NCBI RefSeq assembly: GCF_000148725.1
Contig: NZ_GL476320.1
Coordinates: forward strand, 163,637-227,636
Direction of reading: 5' to 3'
DNA length: 64,000 bases
Origin: Roseibium sp. TrichSKD4
GTDB lineage: Bacteria > Pseudomonadota > Alphaproteobacteria > Rhizobiales > Stappiaceae
Part shown: in pieces, positions 4,975 through 64,000 of the stretch
Position numbering within the stretch: position 1 is the first letter of the stretch
Layout: each line of letters begins with the position of its first letter
Notes under the pieces: model-generated
What the model was told of the DNA's origin: nothing
The model's input: only the letters and a program-made list of their open reading frames with translations
Database searches by the model: none
Translations under genes and position numbers: made by a program

Positions 4975-5012
4975 GATGAACCCCTAAGGTCCTAGCGGGT
5001 GAGATGGTGCGA

Positions 5013-5594
5013 TCAGACAAACTGCCGATTCTCCTCATCAATAGCTGCCGCCTCGCGCATGATCCAGCCAAAGACAAGGATCAAGCCACCAAAGACGAGG
5101 AAAAACAGCTCGCTACCGTCCAATCCAACTATCAGTTGGCGTTGGCCTTCAGGATAATCCAGCGTTGCCAAAATCGAGGAAATCGGATCCTCCACGATGT
5201 CAAACACCCCGAAGGCAATCAGGCACGACCCGGCCAGAAGAATGCGGTTCAAGGTTGCCAATTCAAAAAAGCGGAGCTCCTGAAATTGGCTGAAAAGTCT
5301 GCGCAGGTTCCAGGCCATGGCGATCAGAATTCCGAAATAGACCAACATCAAACAGAGAATGCCCATCCGCTGCACAAACGGGATATCGGCATAAGGGCGT
5401 TCCTGTTCGTCCAGATAGACAGCGGTTTCCGTTGCCAGGAAATCAAGGCTTGGATCAATCAGGGCAAGCGCCAACCCAAGCGCCACCACTACCATGATCG
5501 CAGCGCAAAGTGTCGACACCCATTTCATCACGCAGGAGAGGCCGTACAGGCGGTTCAAACGCGGGTGTTGACGGGCGGAAAGGTCAGTGGCCAT
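5013..5594 (-). CDS. DUF2975 family membrane protein (copy 2)
   Basis: A 193-residue integral membrane protein of the DUF2975 type, function unknown. Four hydrophobic segments are visible: near the N terminus (KWVSTLCAAIMVVVALGLAL), after IPFVQRMG, around LLAGSCLIAFGVFDI, and LFFLVFGGLILVFGWIM. It ends in the family-typical REAAAIDEENRQFV. The ATG at 5594 is used; an in-frame GTG at 5612 is possible, but the GGA closest to good spacing precedes 5594. It is a diverged duplicate of the gene immediately upstream, with shared YPEGQRQL-like and EAAxxxxENRQF motifs, and is followed by the XRE gene. Confidence 0.82.
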   Translation of the reverse strand: MATDLSARQHPRLNRLYGLSCVMKWVSTLCAAIMVVVALGLALALIDPSLDFLATETAVYLDEQERPYADIPFVQRMGILCLMLVYFGILIAMAWNLRRLFSQFQELRFFELATLNRILLAGSCLIAFGVFDIVEDPISSILATLDYPEGQRQLIVGLDGSELFFLVFGGLILVFGWIMREAAAIDEENRQFV

Positions 5595-5615
5595 GGCAAG
5601 GTGTCCATTCACAAC

Positions 5616-6209
5616 TTAGATAAACTGGCGGTTTTCATCCGCAATTTCAGCGGCTTCTCGCAACGTCCAGCCGAACACGATCATCAGGCTGCCAATCACG
5701 ATGAAGAACAGCTCGCCGCCGTCAATGGTGAGGTCCAGTTGTCGTTGGCCTTCGGGCAAATCCAGTGTGAAGAGCAGCGTCATCAGCGGGTCGGTCAACA
5801 CATCCAGAAGGCCGAAGGCAATCAGCCAGCCACCGATGCCAACAAAGCGGAAAAGCGTGCGCGGTGAGAAATAATCTCCCTGACGCAGAAACTCGAACAA
5901 CTGGCGGATTTGCCAGCAAATCCCCACCAAAATGCCGAATGAAATCACCACAAGGGCCGACACGCCTGCCCGTTGGACCAGAGGGACGTCACCGAGGCGG
6001 CGCTCCACCTCTCCGAGATCCATCATCTCGTTCATGGCTTCAAAGGGACCGGGAAACACCAGCAGGGCAGACAGGAGAAGGCCGACCGCAACCAGCAGGA
6101 GCAAGACACACGTGACGAACCACTTCATGAAGCGGGACACCCGGCGGATCCTGGTCAGCCGCGCTGTTCGTTGCGCTTGAAGGACGTCGGCACTGTGGCT
6201 CGTGGTCAT
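5616..6209 (-). CDS. DUF2975 family membrane protein (copy 1)
   Basis: A 197-residue membrane protein with four predicted transmembrane segments and the C-terminal tail LREAAEIADENRQFI that marks DUF2975. The ATG at 6209 is chosen over an upstream start at 6239 because a GGAGA lies six bases before it. It is first in a three-gene minus-strand operon (DUF2975, DUF2975, XRE). The tandem duplication suggests the two products may form a hetero-oligomer, but this is inference. No catalytic motif is visible. Confidence 0.85.
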   Translation of the reverse strand: MTTSHSADVLQAQRTARLTRIRRVSRFMKWFVTCVLLLLVAVGLLLSALLVFPGPFEAMNEMMDLGEVERRLGDVPLVQRAGVSALVVISFGILVGICWQIRQLFEFLRQGDYFSPRTLFRFVGIGGWLIAFGLLDVLTDPLMTLLFTLDLPEGQRQLDLTIDGGELFFIVIGSLMIVFGWTLREAAEIADENRQFI

Positions 6210-8699: not shown

Positions 8700-8946
8700 G
8701 AGCACGCTTCGTTCACCTCTCCCATGGGCAGAGGTCGGCGCGCAGCGGCCGGTGAGGGGAGGCGATCTCTCAGGGAGGCGGTGGCCATCCCAGCACCTCA
8801 CCCCAACCCTCTCCCAGCGGGCGAGGGGGCGCATCGGTGACTGATTGCATTTCTGCCCGTCTTCCTGGCCAAGCGTAGCGCGAGCCGGGGTCTGTCGCGG
8901 TGAACAGCCATACTGAAAGAGGCCCCGGAGCAAGTCCGGGGCGGCG
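8700..8946. repeat. Intergenic palindromic repeats, copy B
   Basis: The 292-base gap between the convergent cupin and haloacid dehalogenase genes has no gene but holds two repeat-like blocks. The first (about 8716-8830) contains CCTCTCCCATGGGCAGAGG and a CCTCACCCCAACCCTCTCCC block of the kind found between genes in many alphaproteobacteria. The second (8855-8946) resembles 4591-4680 (shared TGGCCAAGCG, AGCGCG and GCCGGG segments) and ends in a CCCCGGAGCAAGTCCGGGG hairpin at about 8924-8942. Confidence 0.7.
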
Positions 8947-53211: not shown

Positions 53212-53882
53212 TGGCAAAACACCCTTGAAATCTCGGGCATTGTCGCACCGCTGAGAGCTGCGCCCGTGGTGACCGGCGCATCATAAAGACGAAGGGTCAG
53301 GATCATCCCGTCTGAGCTGCGAGCGTATCGCGGCAAGGGTAGCCAATTGCCGGGGTAAGGGCTTGCAGAGGCGGTGATGTCGAAACTGCCGTCTTCCCGT
53401 CTCAGCAAGCCGGAGCTGGTAACGAAGGTGCGTCCGGCCAATGTCTTCTGAAGTTTTCCATTTTCGTTTGTTGCCGACAAGGTCCAGAACCGGGCCGTCG
53501 GTGTCTGACCCGACACAGAATAGGTGCAAGTCGGATCGAGCCGCCGTCCTTCACTATCTTTATGGGCGGTAAGCATCAGCCCTTCACCGGAAGCAAGGGG
53601 AATCAAGGCACCTCGGGTATAGATTGCTACCGAATAAGGATCGGCTTCCGAAGTTCCAGCCTCCGGATAAGCCTCCCACGGCCCAATCGTCAAAGGCAGC
53701 AGCGGACGCTCGCGTTCAATCAGGAGGAAAGCGCTCACAATTCCGATCAGAGAGCCGAATATGAGAGTGATTACAACGGTCAGAACGGACCGCAGGGGGG
53801 CAGGGCGCGAACTTTGTAGAACGCGGGGAAGATCAGAGCGGTAAAGGTTCTCTTCACCGGTTGGTTGCCACTGCTGGTTCAT
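53208..53882 (-). CDS. DUF1214 domain-containing membrane-anchored protein
   Basis: 224 residues: a cytoplasmic N terminus, one membrane helix (VLTVVITLIFGSLIGIVSAFLL), then a periplasmic DUF1214 domain with GPWEAYPEAGTSEADPYSVAIYTRGALIPLASGEGL, ARFWTLSATNENG and LPLPRYARSSDGMILTLRLYD. The start overlaps the stop of the penicillin-binding protein gene and the stop overlaps the DUF1254-like gene, both as ATGA. This layout suggests a role in the envelope together with peptidoglycan synthesis, by context only. Confidence 0.85.
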   Translation of the reverse strand: MNQQWQPTGEENLYRSDLPRVLQSSRPAPLRSVLTVVITLIFGSLIGIVSAFLLIERERPLLPLTIGPWEAYPEAGTSEADPYSVAIYTRGALIPLASGEGLMLTAHKDSEGRRLDPTCTYSVSGQTPTARFWTLSATNENGKLQKTLAGRTFVTSSGLLRREDGSFDITASASPYPGNWLPLPRYARSSDGMILTLRLYDAPVTTGAALSGATMPEISRVFCQ

Positions 53883-56318: not shown

Positions 56319-56804
56319 GTGCCCAATGCCACACCGCCGCAAAGCGGCGAACCCTTCTGGAAGACAACATCCTTAGACGACATGTCCCAAGCGCAATGGG
56401 AATCTCTGTGCGACGGATGCGCCAGATGCTGTTTGAACAAGCTGGAAGACTGGGATACGGGCCAGATCGTCTGGACGGACGTGCGATGCACGTTGCTCGA
56501 TGGCGAAAGTTGCCGCTGCAAGGATTATGAAAACCGCGCAGCGACCGTGCCGGATTGTATCCACCTGACCCCGTCGGAAGTTCGCACCTTGAGCTGGTTG
56601 CCGCCAACCTGCGCCTATCGGCTGGTGCAGGAAGGGCGAGACCTTTACTGGTGGCATCCGCTCCTATCAGGCGATCCGGACACTGTCCATCAGGCAGGAG
56701 TTTCGGTCGAAAACCGAACAGTCTCAGAAGACGGAATGGCACTCGAGGATTACGAGCACCATGTGGTTTTCTGGCCGGGCGAGGATATAGAATCTAACCA
56801 GTAA
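56319..56804 (+). CDS. YcgN/UPF0260 family cysteine-cluster protein
   Basis: 161 residues. The family cysteine pattern is visible as [11 protein letters not shown], followed by [16 protein letters not shown] and PDCIHLTP, a likely metal or Fe-S binding arrangement, and by [13 protein letters not shown]. The C terminus [13 protein letters not shown] is also typical. The start is a GTG at 56319. The gene is divergent from the PBP gene and its biochemical role is unknown. Confidence 0.93.
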
Positions 56805-57206: not shown

Positions 57207-57866
57207 TTATGGGGAGGGTGCAGCAACGAGGAAAGCCTCGGCATGACGCCGCAGTCGTTCTTCAATTGTATGCATGTCTTCTATTTGGTGAGATTGCCAC
57301 AAAATCGCGCCGTGGCACATGAATGCAATCAACCCGTCGACCATTTCTTGCGGATCCCGGTCCCGTCTGAGAGGGGGAGACAGATCTGGCGAGGATTGCC
57401 ACTTTTCCAAAAAGGTCACCAGATGCCTGTCGAGCACATCCAGTTGCTCGACAAACTCTGGGGCGCAGTTGCCTTTGGTGGCGCCGATATTCTCCATGAA
57501 AATGCGCAGCATCACTGGTGTGTGGGTGATCACTTCAACCAGTTTCATCATGCGCGATGCCAAAACCGAAAGTGGATCTGAGGCACAAGCGGCCGCGAAC
57601 ATGTCATCCTTGTCGGTCTCAAGGCGCAGGGCTGTCAAACGGTCCAGAAGCACATAGGAATAAAGCCCGTCCATATCCCCGAAATGGGCAAAAACCGTGC
57701 CTTTGGCGACACCAGCTGCGGCCGCAATTTCCTCCGCCGTGATATCTTCCAGCTGCCTTTCCGAGGCAAGTTTCTGCGTGGTCTCAAGAATGCGAGACCG
57801 CGTGAGAAGGGTGCGCGCCTGCGGCTTGCGCTGGGGTGTCTTTTCCGGATCGGACATTGCCGACAT
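57207..57866 (-). CDS. TetR family transcriptional repressor
   Basis: 219 residues. The helix-turn-helix domain is TRSRILETTQKLASERQLEDITAEEIAAAAGVAKGTVFAHFGDMDGLYSYVL, the classic TetR start. The C-terminal ligand domain is all helical and unassigned. GGAG lies five bases before the ATG at 57866. It is divergent from the truncated quinone-reductase gene at 57926, and a palindrome between them is the probable operator, so the reductase was likely its target. Confidence 0.93.
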   Translation of the reverse strand: MSAMSDPEKTPQRKPQARTLLTRSRILETTQKLASERQLEDITAEEIAAAAGVAKGTVFAHFGDMDGLYSYVLLDRLTALRLETDKDDMFAAACASDPLSVLASRMMKLVEVITHTPVMLRIFMENIGATKGNCAPEFVEQLDVLDRHLVTFLEKWQSSPDLSPPLRRDRDPQEMVDGLIAFMCHGAILWQSHQIEDMHTIEERLRRHAEAFLVAAPSP

Positions 57867-57879
57867 AAGAGCTCCAAAA

Positions 57880-57895
57880 ATTGACCGTGGTCAAT
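57880..57895. promoter_or_regulatory. Probable TetR operator
   Basis: ATTGACC-GT-GGTCAAT is a perfect seven-base inverted repeat with a two-base centre, lying 14 bases upstream of the TetR start and 31 bases upstream of the divergent reductase start. Symmetric sites with this position are typical autoregulatory TetR operators. Confidence 0.7.
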
Positions 57896-57925
57896 AATTG
57901 ATATTCCAAAGTTTGGAGCGTTTTC

Positions 57926-57990
57926 ATGTCACGAAAAATACTGGTGCTGGATGGGCATCCGGCAAAGGACAGCTTTTGCGGTGCGCTTGT
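57926..57990 (+). pseudogene. 5' fragment of an NAD(P)H:quinone oxidoreductase (flavodoxin-2 family), cut by IS21
   Basis: Only the first 22 codons remain. MSRKILVLDGHPAKDSF, then CGALV, is the FMN-binding first strand and loop of NQO/YwrO-type reductases. The ATG at 57926 has GGAG upstream. The gene runs straight into the left end of the IS21 element at 57991 and terminates at a TGA inside it (58001-58003). The missing 3' part is not on the other side of the element. Confidence 0.8.
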
Positions 57991-58048
57991 TGATTTTCAC
58001 TGAGAACTGACCCGGTGGCCCCATAAATTGTCACTGAGAACTGACCCA
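57991..58048. repeat. IS21 left end with two transposase-binding repeats
   Basis: The outer repeat is 57991-58016. An inner copy of CACTGAGAACTGACCC occurs at 58032-58047, just before istA. IstA binds such multiple terminal repeats in IS21 elements. Confidence 0.9.
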
Positions 58049-58100
58049 TGTGAACACACTACCCCGACGTTTTTGGCTCGGGGGATATGGAGTGATCGAC

Positions 58101-59630
58101 ATGGGATTTTTGAGTGTCATTCGACGCTGGGCATTGCGTGACAAAATGCCAATCAGAGAGATTTCCCGTCGCACGGGTTTATCTCGCAACACGGTGAAGA
58201 AGTATCTGCGCGAGGGCATTGTTGAGCCGAAGTTCAAAACCCCGCCGCGACCAACCAAACTTGATCCGTATGCGGACCGTTTGTCTTCTTGGTTTGTGGC
58301 CCAGACGCGCAAGTCGCGCAAAGAGCGTCGAACCGTCAAACAGATGCACGTGGATCTGGTGCAGTTAGGGTATGATGGCTCCTATGAACGTGTGGCGGCC
58401 TTTGTCCGTGCGTGGCGTGCGGACCGGCAGCGGGCGGAACAGACGACAGGGCGCGGCACATTTGTGCCTCTGATCTTCCAGCCCGGCGAAGCTTTCCAGT
58501 TTGATTGGAGTGAAGACTGGGCCAATATTGGCGGCGAGCGACTGAAGCTTCAGGTCGCGCATATCAAGTTGTCACACAGTCGGGCGTTTTTGGTCCGGGC
58601 TTACCTGCTGCAAACGCACGAGATGCTGTTTGACGCCCATTGGCACGCGTTCCGCGTGTTTGGCGGCGTTCCTGGCCGAGGGATCTATGACAATATGAAG
58701 ACAGCGGTTGATCGCGTCGGCAAAGGCAAGCAGCGGGACATCAACGTCCGTTTCAAGGCGATGGCTAGCCACTACGTCTTTGAGCCTGAGTTCTGCAATC
58801 CGGCTTCAGGTTGGGAGAAAGGCCAGGTCGAGAAGAACGTCCAGGACGCGCGCAATCGGCTTTGGCAGGTCATGCCCGTCCTTGCAGATCTGGCTGAACT
58901 GAACCAATGGCTTGAAGATCGGTGCATCGCCCTTTGGGCGGAGACGCCGCACAAAGCCTTGCCGGGGTCTCTCGCCGATGTGTGGAAAGCTGAGAAGCCA
59001 ATGCTGATGGCTCTGCCGCCGGCCTTCGATGGATTTATCGAACATAGCAAGCGAGTGTCTCCCACATGCCTGATCACATTCGAACGCAACAGGTATAGCG
59101 TGCCCGCCAGCTTTGCGAACCGCCGTGTCAGCCTGCATGTCTACCCTGACCGACTGGTCGTTGTGGCCGAAGGGCAAACAGTTTGTGAACATGCACGGCT
59201 CATTGATCGGTCCTGCCGCAAATCAGGCAAGGTTGTTTATGACTGGCGGCACTATCTTGCTGTCATTCAGCGCAAACCTGGCGCCCTTCGCAATGGCGCG
59301 CCCTTCACCGAGATGCCGGAAGCCTTCCAACGGCTGCAGGAACGCATGTTACGCAAGGAGGGGGGTGACAGGGAAATGGTCGACATCCTCTCATTGGTTC
59401 TGCAGCATAACGAAGAGGACGTGTTACGCGCCGTGGACAAGGCGCTGGAAGCGGGTGTGCCAACCAAGACGCATATCCTGAACCTTCTACACCGGTTGAT
59501 CGACCGTAAGCCGACGGAACATCCAGAAGTCGACCCACCGGACGCCTTGGCATTGCAAACCACGCCCGAGGCAAATCTAAATCGTTACGATGGCCTGAGA
59601 CAGGCTGGGGAGAAGCGCCATGCGTCATGA
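58101..59630 (+). CDS. istA: IS21-family transposase IstA
   Basis: 509 residues. The N-terminal helix-turn-helix is [19 protein letters not shown] (about residues 21-39). The DDE catalytic core has the first Asp in FQFDWSEDW (residue 135), the second in [11 protein letters not shown], and the glutamate in [16 protein letters not shown]. The ATG at 58101 has GGAG eight bases upstream; the frame extends to 58050. The ORF is intact, so the element may be active. Confidence 0.96.
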
Positions 59631-60411
59631 CCCAGCCGGAGCCTCTATCGTCATCATGCTGCGCAGCCTCAAGCTCTATGGCATGGCAAATGCCGTCGAA
59701 GACCTGGTCGCCCAAGGTGCCCCAGCCTTTGAAGCCGCGACCCCGATGTTATCACAGCTGCTCAAGGCTGAAATGGCGGAACGAGAGGTTCGATCCATCG
59801 CTTACCACACAAAGGTCGCCCGCTTCCCTGCATACAAAGACCTCACCGGCTTTGATTTTGCGTCCAGTGAAATTAACGAAGCGAAAGTCCGGCAGTTACA
59901 CCGGTGTGAGTTCATCGAAAACACCGAGAATGTCGTTCTGATCGGTGGGCCCGGCACGGGCAAAAGCCACACCGCCACAGCAATCGGCGTTCAGGCGATC
60001 GAACACCACAGGCGCAAGGTTCGGTTCTTCTCAACAGTGGAGCTGGTCAATGCACTGGAGCAAGAAAAAGCGATTGGCAAGGCTGGGAAAATCGCTGATA
60101 TGCTGACCAAAGTCGACTTGGTCATCCTGGATGAGCTCGGTTACCTGCCGTTCAGTTCATCAGGTGGGGCGCTGCTCTTTCACCTGCTCAGCAAGCTCTA
60201 CGAGCGCACAAGCGTCATCATCACAACCAACCGTAGCTTCTCAGAATGGGCGCAGGTCTTCACAGATGCAAAGATGACCACCGCTCTCTTAGACCGCCTC
60301 ACGCACCGCTGCCACATCTTGGAAACAGGCAACGACAGCTACCGCTTCAAAGCCAGTTCCAAGGATACAAAGAAAACTAGAAAGGAGACCCCAACATTGA
60401 CCGCGTCATAG
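59620..60411 (+). CDS. istB: IS21-family helper ATPase IstB
   Basis: 263 residues, AAA+ ATPase that stimulates IstA and selects targets. The DnaC-like Walker A GGPGTGKS is at residues 109-116, Walker B in [19 protein letters not shown], and [20 protein letters not shown] is a family signature. Its start lies 11 bases inside istA, indicating coupled translation. It is intact. Confidence 0.96.
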
Positions 60412-60433
60412 ACCACGACGCATAACTAAAGGT

Positions 60434-60480
60434 GGGTCAATTCTCGGTGAAAATACCGGGTCAGTTCTCAGTGAAAATCA
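60434..60480. repeat. IS21 right end with two transposase-binding repeats
   Basis: The outer inverted repeat is 60455-60480, identical in complement to the left outer repeat for 26 bases. The inner repeat GGGTCAATTCTCGGTGAAAA at 60434-60453 is slightly diverged. Confidence 0.9.
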
Positions 60481-60680
60481 ACAATCTCGCGGGCGATATT
60501 CTGGTTTTTCGATGGAAGGATGGGTCGCCCGCCAAACATGCGGGCATCCTCGCTTCATCCACCAGCCTCATTCACACCTATGACCGCATTGGCGTTGTCG
60601 AAACACCGCTTGTACCCGCCTGGAAACGGCGGGTTGCTGCCGTTTTCTCGTTTCCCGGAGGTTCCCCATGGCAACATTGA
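60481..60680 (+). pseudogene. 3' fragment of GTA NlpC/P60-type peptidase gene
   Basis: The frame entering from the IS right end encodes NLAGDILVFRWKDGSPAKHAG, then TYDRIGVVETPLVPAWKRRVAAVFSFP, and stops at 60680. This is the C-terminal third of the NlpC/P60 cell-wall peptidase that precedes the megatron-type tail protein in alphaproteobacterial gene transfer agents. The N-terminal part with the catalytic Cys-His is missing. The stop overlaps the start of the next gene by 13 bases, as in intact GTA clusters. Confidence 0.8.
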
Positions 60681-63600
60681 TTTTGGCCGCCGCCGGTGCA
60701 TTGGCCGGGGGGCTGGTTGACCAATCCTTGTTCGGCTCGACCCGGACGATTGAAGGCGCGCGGCTGAAGGATCTGGACGTTCAGGCCTCCACCGAAGGGG
60801 CAAGCTTGCCAAAGGTCTATGGCCGGGTGCGCCTGTCCGGGCAGGTGATCTGGTCTTCCCGCTTTGAAGAAGTGGTGAGCGAGGAACGCCACGGCGGCAA
60901 GGGCGGCGGGCCGAATGTCAAGGTGAAGTCCTATTCCTACTTCGCCAATTTCGCCGTTGCCATTTGCGAGGGCCCGATTGTCCGGGTCGGGCGCGTTTGG
61001 GCAGATGGCAAGGAAATCGATGCCTCAAGTCTGCCCATGCGCATCTATCTTGGTGTTGATGATCAATTGCCAGACCCGCTGGTGTCGGCTTTGCAAGGCA
61101 CGGCTCCGGCCTATCGAGGCACAGCCTATGTGGTGTTTGAGCGTCTGCCGCTGGAAGAGTTTGGCAACCGCTTGCCGCAGCTTTCCTTTGAGGTAATCCG
61201 GCCTGTCGATCATCTGGAAAATCTGGTGCAGGCCGTCACGATTATTCCCGGCGCGGGCGAGTTCGTCTATGCGCCTCATCAGGTGACCAGTCAGCCGCGC
61301 CCCGGTGTGACGGAAAGCGTGAATACGCATGTCAGTGGAGCGAACTCCGACTGGCAAGCCTCGATTGATGAATTGCAGGCCCTGTGCCCAAATCTGAAAC
61401 GTGTTGCTCTGGTGGTGGCGTGGTTTGGGGATGATTTGCGTGCAGGCCAGCGTTCCATCAAGCCCAAGGTGGAGGTGGCGGACAAAACCACATCAGGCGC
61501 GACTTGGTCTGTCTCAGGTGTCAGTCGTGAGCAGGCAGAGTTAGTCTCCCGGCTAGAGGGGCGCCCAGCCTATGGCGGCACACCTTCAGATGACACGGTT
61601 ATTGCGGCCATCAAAGACTTGAAGGTACGCGGCCTTGAGGTGATGCTTATTCCCTTCGTCCTGATGGATATTGCCCCCGGCAATGGGCTTGCCGACCCTT
61701 ACGGAGCAAACGAGCAAGCACCGTTTCCCTGGCGTGGGCGCATCGTGTCAGCCGCAGACCCTATGGCTGTGGCAGCATCCTTTTTTGGAAGTATTTCAGC
61801 AGCGAACTTTTCTGTTTCTGCCGGTTCTGTTGCATATTCTGGGCCTGATAGTTGGGGTTTCCGACGGCACATTTTGCACTGCGCAGCGCTGTGCAAAGCT
61901 GCTGGCGGGGTTGAAGCGTTCCTGATCGGTACGGAAATGCGTGGGCTGAGCAGAGCCCATGCGGGTGGTGGCCTTTATCCCTTCGTTGATCAGTGGGTCA
62001 GCCTTGCGAGCGAGGCAAGGCAGGTGCTGGGACCCGCAACCAAACTGTCTTACGCTGCGGATTGGTCGGAATATGGCGCGCATCCCATCTCGGATCAGGA
62101 ACTGCGGTTTCCGCTCGACAAACTTTGGGCGGCCCCGGAGATCGATTTTGTCGGGATCGACAATTACCTGCCGATTGCAGACCAACGGGACGCGGGTGAT
62201 CCGGACGGAAACCGTGATCCCTATGATGTGGAAACCCTGCACAGCCAAATCGAGCGCGGCGAATATCATGACTGGTATTACGCCACGGACGCCGACCGTG
62301 AGGTCGGACACCGGACGCCCATTACGGATGGAGCCGCAGGCAAACCGTGGGTTTACCGCACAAAGGACATTCGTTCATGGTGGGAAAATCAGCATTTTGA
62401 GCGCGTTGCGGGAAGCGAGTTGGCAAGCCCGACACTTTGGGTGCCCGGTTCAAAACCCATCCGGTTTACCGAACTGGGCGTTCCGGCCATTGATCGCGGT
62501 GCCAATCAGCCCAATGTGTTTGTCGATCCGAAATCCTCCGAAAATGCCGTGCCGCATTTTTCGTGCGGGATACGCGATGACCTCATTCAGCGCCGGGCCC
62601 TGGAGGCTCACTTAAGTTATTAGGGGGCAGGGCATCCGCTCCATTTGCCAGCCGTGCAACCGGTGTCGCTACAATACGGCGGGCCGATGGTGGAGCCGAA
62701 CGGCATCTATCTCTGGACATGGGACGCCCGGCCATATCCAGCCTTTCCGCGTTACGGCGATGTGTGGGCCGATGGTGCCAACTGGGCGCTGGGCCATTGG
62801 CTGACAGGGCGTCTGGGCGCGTCCGGATTGACGGCTGTGGTCATGAAAATCCTGGAAGACTTCGGATTATCGGCTGCCGACTTCCCGGTGCATGACTTGA
62901 AGGGCTCGATTGATGGTCTTGCTATTCCAGCTCCGGTTTCCGCACAGCAGGTTCTGGAGCCGCTTCTCAACGCCTATGGCGGATTGGCGGCTGATCTGGG
63001 GACGCAGGTCGTGTTCAAGGACAGCGACGGGCCGATCGTTCAAAGTCTTGAGGCGAAGTCTCTGGCAGAACCGGCCGCAGACGAAGCGATCCTGTCACGC
63101 ACGCGGGCACAAGCCAATGAATTGCCCCATGAGGTGAGGGTCGGTGCAAGTGATCCGGTGACGGATTTCCGAACGCGGATTGCCGGGTCTCGCCGCCTTG
63201 AAGGCGGCAGCCGAACCATAGAGAGCCTTGATCTGAATGCGGTGCTCAAACCTGAGGACGCTCAAGTGCTCGCCGAGCGCCGTCTGCACCGCATCTGGCA
63301 GGAGCGCGAACGGGTGCAATTTGCCCTCGGGCCGGGGGACTTGGCCGTTGATGTAGGCGATACTGTTGAGATCAAGAGCACTCCGACGGAAGAGTTCGAC
63401 CCGCCGCTAAAGCTCCGAATTCTGTCCGTGGAGGAAACAGATCGTCGGAAAATAGAAGGCGTGGTTCTGGGAAGCGGCGCGCCTGCAATGCTGAAAAGCG
63501 GTGCCGCTGATATCGTGCCGTTTCGCTCGCGGGTTCTGGGGCCGCCTGTCTTTGAGGTTCTGGACCTGCCCATGCTCAGTGAAGAAGATGCGGCGCACGC

Positions 63601-64000
63601 GCCCCGGCTTGCGGTCTTTGCCGAGCCGTGGCCGGGTGGCTACGCGCTTGAGCGAACGGCCGGGACGACTGGATATCAGCCGGTTACAACATTGGAAAGC
63701 CCAGCCACCATGGGGGTGCTTACGCAGCCATTGGAAGCTGGCCCCCTGTGGATTTGGGATGAAGGGCAGGTTCTGGACATTGAGTTTTTCTCCGGGCACC
63801 CAAGTTCAAGATCTGTACAAGAGGTGCTGGCGGGAGCAAATGCGCTTGCCGTCAAAACCCGCACCAGCGGCTATGAAGTCTTGCAGTTTCAAAACGCTGA
63901 ATTGCTTGGTCCGCGACACTATCGCCTGAGTCGATTGTTACGCGGGCAAAGGGGCACCGAAGAGGAAACGGCAGCGGGCGCTGATGCCGGTGCAAGCGTT
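60668..64000 (+). pseudogene. GTA baseplate/host-specificity (megatron-type) tail protein, interrupted by TAG, 3' end outside window
   Basis: From the ATG at 60668 (GGAGG upstream) the frame encodes the long GTA tail-tip protein (gp15-like). The first part begins ATLILAAAGALAGGLVD and carries ASLPKVYGRVRLSGQVIWSSRF; the TIM-barrel domain follows, with FLIGTEMRGLSRAH and KLSYAADWSEYG. A TAG at 62621-62623 ends it after EAHLSY. The same frame then continues with LHLPAVQPVSLQYGG, then PNGIYLWTWDARPYPAFP, and further tail domains to the window end without another stop. A TGG-to-TAG change is one possible cause. Together with the truncated peptidase this GTA cluster looks inactivated. Confidence 0.8.

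Follow-up and report, generated by a model that had tools for sequence, protein, structure and literature searches.

An IS21-family element at the site of a probable deletion in a GTA cluster of Roseibium

The IS21-family element and its flanks

The window, by which we mean the whole 64-kb stretch of DNA that was analysed (64,000 nucleotides), contains an intact IS21-family insertion sequence that lies between the first codons of a quinone reductase gene and the last codons of a peptidase gene of a gene transfer agent (GTA), a virus-like particle that transfers genes. The features of this locus are given below; the g numbers of the GTA genes are those that we presume from the gene order of RcGTA.

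57207..57866, minus strand: intact TetR-family repressor gene, divergent from the reductase (Pfam TetR_N, E = 3.8e-10)
57881..57894: palindrome TTGACCGTGGTCAA, a likely TetR operator, retained (pattern search)
57926..57987, plus strand: truncated flavodoxin-2 quinone reductase (20 codons and 2 nt)
57988..60483, plus strand: IS21-family insertion sequence, 2496 bp, intact
57988..58016: left terminal inverted repeat, with an inner copy of its motif at 58027-58047
58101..59630, plus strand: istA transposase (frame open from 58050; start at 58101 as in annotated relatives)
59620..60411, plus strand: istB helper ATPase with Walker A motif GGPGTGKS (NCBIfam match)
60455..60483: right terminal inverted repeat (inverted-repeat search)
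60484..60680, plus strand: 3′ remnant of GTA g14, an NlpC/P60 peptidase gene (family by TIGR02219)
60668..64000, plus strand: GTA g15, the 'megatron' baseplate gene, running off the window (NCBIfam GTA_megatron and alignment to relatives)

The assignment of the element to the IS21 family follows from a transposase and an AAA+ helper in tandem, both above their NCBIfam cut-offs (IstA, transpos_IS21, NF033546, 327 bits against 160; IstB, IS21_help_AAA, NF038214, 281 bits against 200). Pfam adds IstB_IS21 at 258.6 bits and Mu-transpos_C_2 above its cut-off, with the rve match (31.7) slightly under the cut-off of 32.6. Elements of this family end in inverted repeats that start with TG and carry further repeated terminal motifs, and the window element has both perfect inverted repeats and the inner repeat at 58027-58047. 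The arms are perfect and measure 29 bp, not the 26 bp given in a preliminary description of this DNA; the search tool reports 30, counting in one outermost pair that belongs to the flanks. The element is single-copy within the window, and its full-length relatives match it over positions 1-2496. At the protein level, IstA is 76-89% identical to 14 relatives. Among plasmid records, 1666 match the element and 230 contain at least 80% of it in one place; the full-length relatives are on Roseobacter-group plasmids, the best of them with 83.6% nucleotide identity, while a search of a phage collection gave three records, each covering 1-6% of the query. The copy of Roseovarius pelagicus (NZ_CP106737; 83.6% identity in nucleotides, 89% in IstA) shares with the window element its length of 2496 bp, the termini TGTTGATT...AATCAACA, the istA/istB overlap and the proteins. 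It differs in having an 8-bp target duplication, as expected of a simple insertion, whereas the window element has none.

No target duplication was found at the ends of the window element when lengths of 2-12 bp and 4-12 bp were tested, and the mark of a simple IS21 insertion is thus missing. The same holds for 17 of the 21 full-length relatives (L101-L108, L135-L140 and L161-L167, a non-independent sample with several copies from one strain or species, of which L108, L136 and L167 are longer than 2496 bp), which have no duplication of at least 4 bp. The other four (L101, L102, L163 and L165) have one of 6-9 bp, 8 bp in L101 and L102. The absence of a duplication, correctly reported in the preliminary description, is therefore weak evidence, and we dropped it as a proof of recombination.

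On the left, the reductase gene is truncated after 20 codons and 2 nt; an earlier count of 22 codons had recognized the truncated start and included bases of the IS. The piece matches the reductase start of nine relatives over 18-20 residues (95% identity to Roseibium sediminis), and its full-length relative belongs to Pfam Flavodoxin_2. On the right, the g14 remnant comprises, as reckoned from the coordinates, about the last 65 codons, the first 95 or so of 160 being absent relative to R. sediminis; it matches positions 79-134 of the 134 positions of TIGR02219 with 68 bits, the cut-off of 81.9 being that of the whole protein. Profiles and relatives thus confirm that the element joins the start of a reductase to the end of a GTA NlpC/P60 peptidase. 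Downstream, g15 is short of 21 N-terminal residues (6 + 15 in the alignment) and is broken by an in-frame stop codon (TAG, 62621-62623) at the place of a tryptophan in R. sediminis; the frame is otherwise open to the window end. The GTA_megatron profile scores 1008 bits before the stop and 395 after it, with a cut-off of 800 that applies to the whole protein. Peptidase and megatron follow each other as in an RcGTA-type cluster. However, the clusters of relatives also have terminase, portal, capsid, connector, tail, tape measure, DUF2460 and hub genes, whereas the window is left with a piece of g14 and a stop-interrupted g15.

Gene order in relatives and the missing interval

Relatives carrying the g15 protein were found in a genome collection; among the best 80 of 114, the nearest by g15 is R. 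sediminis (77% identity). The TetR protein was first sought in the genomes of nine of these relatives, then across the 45 genomes of the R. sediminis genus group, the completeness of which is unstated. In this group, TetR matches occur in 39 genomes (E<=1e-20; best match R. sediminis, 75%), the reductase in 39 (E<=1e-30), g15 in 17 (E<=1e-20) and the capsid in 18, at 69% identity or more in 17 of them and at 48% in the eighteenth (G046). In nine of the 17 g15-bearing genomes (G001, G002, G003, G007, G008, G010, G018, G022 and G035), the TetR-reductase pair lies directly upstream of the GTA cluster, in the order and orientation of the window. The pair and the cluster are far apart on one contig in G016 and G032 and on different contigs in G004, G019, G029, G037 and G043, and G020 has g15 with no TetR match at E<=1e-20.

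The reductase piece and the g14 piece can each be located in all nine collinear spans, and 12,897-18,100 bp separate the two break points there. The preliminary description took the two half-genes to be unrelated; they are in fact neighbours across this interval, in the same orientation, in nine of the 17 GTA-bearing genomes. Using tblastn, terminase, portal, capsid, g6, g9, g11, g12, g13 and NlpC were found in order in all eight spans searched; most of the queries were taken from the ninth (L098, Roseibium litorale), whose ORFs are arranged in the same order. An ORF of about 555 residues between reductase and terminase, which we take to be glutamate-synthase-like, is present in five of the eight searched spans and in L098. 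Pfam and NCBIfam identify in L098 and L001 the terminase (Pfam only), an HK97-type portal, the capsid, the connector, the tail tube, the distal tail protein, the hub and NlpC, with the RcGTA tape measure at 135 bits, under its cut-off of 220. The IS-less junction between peptidase and reductase that would have contradicted the preliminary description was seen in none of the nine spans, all of which hold intervening genes.

In the window, homology to the relatives extends to the IS boundary on both sides, and what is absent runs from codon 21 of the reductase to about codon 95 of g14, with the IS exactly between the two ends. Each edge is flush with an IS end and the DNA found between them in relatives is gone. 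The missing halves are not elsewhere in the window, as the preliminary description had stated: blastn of the missing intervals of L096 and L098 against the window returned only a sequence of about 48 bp at 8714-8758, and tblastn of the window ORFs against the GTA loci of the nine relatives gave no match beyond the g14 and g15 ORFs. The closest comparison comes from R. sediminis, the nearest relative seen, to which five window proteins are 74-87% identical; a same-species genome without the deletion was not found.

We therefore read the locus, with a probability of about 90%, as the product of a single deletion, with one IS21-family element now lying at the scar. The ancestral order was likely TetR on the minus strand, the reductase on the plus strand, followed by the GTA genes as far as NlpC (g14) and the megatron (g15), an order reconstructed from other species, since in eight of the 17 GTA-bearing genomes the pair is not shown beside the GTA. 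The deletion would have taken with it the body of the reductase, the part of the GTA cluster that runs from terminase to baseplate hub and more than half of the g14 peptidase gene, and should abolish the production of GTA particles from this cluster. A single deletion suffices because the genes on either side of the IS have the order and orientation of the nine relatives minus the interval. Moreover, three ORFs next to TetR (at 56794, a YcgN-family ORF at 56319 and a penicillin-binding one at 53879) follow in the same order beyond TetR in R. sediminis. An inversion or a translocation, with the remaining GTA cluster elsewhere in the genome, would not be needed to explain this arrangement; we judge it very improbable and rejected it. 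Of the IS-mediated rearrangement proposed earlier, it is thus the deletion of the GTA structural genes upstream of mid-g14 that stands, and not the inversion or relocation.

How the deletion may have arisen

The outermost 52-55 bp of the window element recur, 100% identical, at seven contig edges of R. sediminis, four as left and three as right ends (L122, L145-L150), and the body of the IS was not seen there. Several identical ends suggest a mobile, multi-copy element, and an identical or very similar IS is probably present in several copies in this species. None of the 12 left-right pairs of these ends shares a target duplication, and several of their flanks hold ORFs that resemble, by eye, integrases or transposases. 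In the IS search of the 45-genome group, six candidates were scored per genome and the IS counts are lower bounds.

Repeats of this kind break assemblies, as the R. sediminis contigs that stop 52-55 bp into the IS illustrate, and the junction in the window could be an artefact in which two IS copies were collapsed and the DNA between them dropped out. A random misjoin would bring together two loci some 15 kb from each other, correctly ordered and oriented, with a probability of about 0.2% (an estimate for a 5-Mb genome), although the collapse of two nearby copies would do so. The stop codon in g15 independently suggests a cluster that no longer works, unless it is a sequencing error. Altogether we regard a misassembly as improbable. 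Less credible still is that a deletion independent of the IS came first and the element landed later exactly at the junction: the IS sits at the very base where both homologies end, and a later simple insertion would be expected to duplicate its target, as with the 8 bp of L101 and L102, even if most of the copies examined show no duplication.

For the single deletion itself, a precedent exists in ISPve1, an IS21-family element of Paracoccus versutus. Of the resistant clones described there, 16% had an insertion with an adjacent deletion of 0.5-4.5 kb, invariably at the 5′ end of the element, and 7% had a simple insertion with 8-bp repeats (PMC3281130). The same paper did not see this habit with the 99% identical isoform ISPve1a or with the other IS21 members studied (PMC3281130). 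A further text attributes such deletions to IS21 head-to-tail dimers (PMC9330008). Compared by description, the window element is like ISPve1 in belonging to the IS21 family, in its size of about 2.5 kb and in its position at the edge of a deletion. It is unlike it in scale and setting: the ISPve1 deletions were obtained in laboratory trap plasmids, whereas the 12.9-18.1 kb missing from the window are estimated by comparison with relatives.

We lean towards an adjacent deletion made by the transposase of one IS that had entered g14, which by analogy with ISPve1 appears to be the most likely mechanism. The IS, perhaps as a head-to-tail dimer, would have landed in g14 with the same orientation as that gene; the transposase would then have linked the 5′ end of the element, on the istA side, to another site within the reductase, with loss of the DNA between the two. 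This direction is suggested by the polarity of ISPve1: with deletion on the 5′ side, an element inserted in g14 would have removed DNA to its left as far as the reductase, and the likeness to ISPve1 on this point holds only if the element did insert there.

A serious rival, to which we give an appreciable but minority share of the probability, is homologous recombination between an IS21 copy in the reductase and a second copy, in direct orientation, in g14, which deleted the DNA between them and left a single copy. It would yield the same end product as an adjacent deletion, likewise without a target duplication, and the repeated IS ends in R. sediminis fit a genome with several copies. It requires, however, two insertions about 15 kb apart in the same orientation; moreover, no IstA/IstB match was found in the eight relative spans searched, and the reductase and NlpC frames of L098 are whole.

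The left flank after the deletion also deserves consideration. The palindrome TTGACCGTGGTCAA at 57881-57894, between TetR and the reductase start, is the sole window match of the pattern TTGAC-N2-4-GTCAA, and TGACC-N2-GGTCA was seen by eye in the upstream stretches of seven of the nine relatives (not in L100 and L144). TetR therefore probably keeps an operator despite the loss of the reductase. The preliminary description had TetR left without its target; the reductase has indeed gone, but the repressor gene and its operator-like palindrome remain. The region upstream of the reductase start now points, in sense orientation, into istA. On the plus strand, a simple scan gave no promoter-like site within 57700-60800 and no terminator-like site from the start of the reductase to the start codon of istA; the first terminator-like site, at 58165-58177, is inside istA.

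Decay of g15 and GTA loss in the group

Apart from its stop codon, g15 shows little excess change. As synonymous divergence is near saturation (dS of 1.4-2.6), dN and relative rates were used and dN/dS was discarded. The dN of the window gene to outgroups is near that of the intact R. sediminis gene (window/R. sediminis: L002 0.282/0.287, L003 0.373/0.375, L005 0.387/0.385, L007 0.389/0.381, L008 0.375/0.365), in comparisons that span 1102-1109 codons for the window gene and 1282-1291 for the R. sediminis gene. Changes unique to the window or to R. sediminis, counted on identical columns, show no excess before the stop (36/49 with L002, 36/39 with L003, 45/37 with L005 and 38/36 with L007). 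After the stop there is a window excess with L002 (46/26, chi-square 5.56) and no clear excess with L003 (35/27), L005 (40/28) or L007 (31/28). Among columns invariant in the others, the window gene has changed at 10 of 298 before the stop and 10 of 132 after it, and the R. sediminis gene at 9 of 297 and 5 of 127 before and after the corresponding position. Decay of g15 is thus slight and probably recent, unless its stop codon is an error of sequencing, and the loss of the GTA looks recent.

Absence of this GTA is common in the R. sediminis group: 28 of the 45 genomes have no megatron match at E<=1e-20, a count of genomes and not of independent losses. The window bears on the question of why GTA clusters are kept or lost: it offers a concrete case of loss in which the cluster was cut in apparently one step, the likely agent is still at the scar and the last gene is little decayed, so that the cost or benefit of the loss could be measured against sister strains. 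Element-linked deletion is a known kind of event, of which the window appears to be a good and apparently fresh example for a GTA; the titles and abstract openings of the papers listed contain no report of GTA loss by an IS, although such reports may exist. More generally, where a draft sequence shows an IS flanked by two partial genes, comparison with relatives can expose a genuine deletion. A broader proposal, which we advance as speculative, is that this IS21 subgroup, in which 17 of the 21 full-length copies have no target duplication, habitually deletes adjoining DNA in the manner of ISPve1 and provides one route of GTA loss in the Roseibium group, the loss in the window being datably recent, and that istA may be controlled by TetR. 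In that event, transposase expression would be under a TetR-controlled switch, with the reductase promoter region facing istA.

Some minor observations were made alongside. In G016 (contig C1; L152, L153) the GTA is split, with terminase-portal-capsid about 58 kb from g6-megatron in the same orientation, which suggests a large insertion between g5 and g6 and another kind of GTA disruption in the group. Further megatron homologues of 51-55% identity are present in 11 of the 17 megatron-bearing genomes (on G001:C63, G003:C10, G035:C1 and others); these are perhaps prophages or second GTA-like clusters. A tRNA scan of the window found none. The sequence at 8714-8758 is about 80% identical to two places in L098 and is perhaps a dispersed repeat. 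Finally, an ORF at 5004-5867 without a Pfam match contains two 151-bp segments, 5015-5165 and 5618-5768, that are 70% alike.
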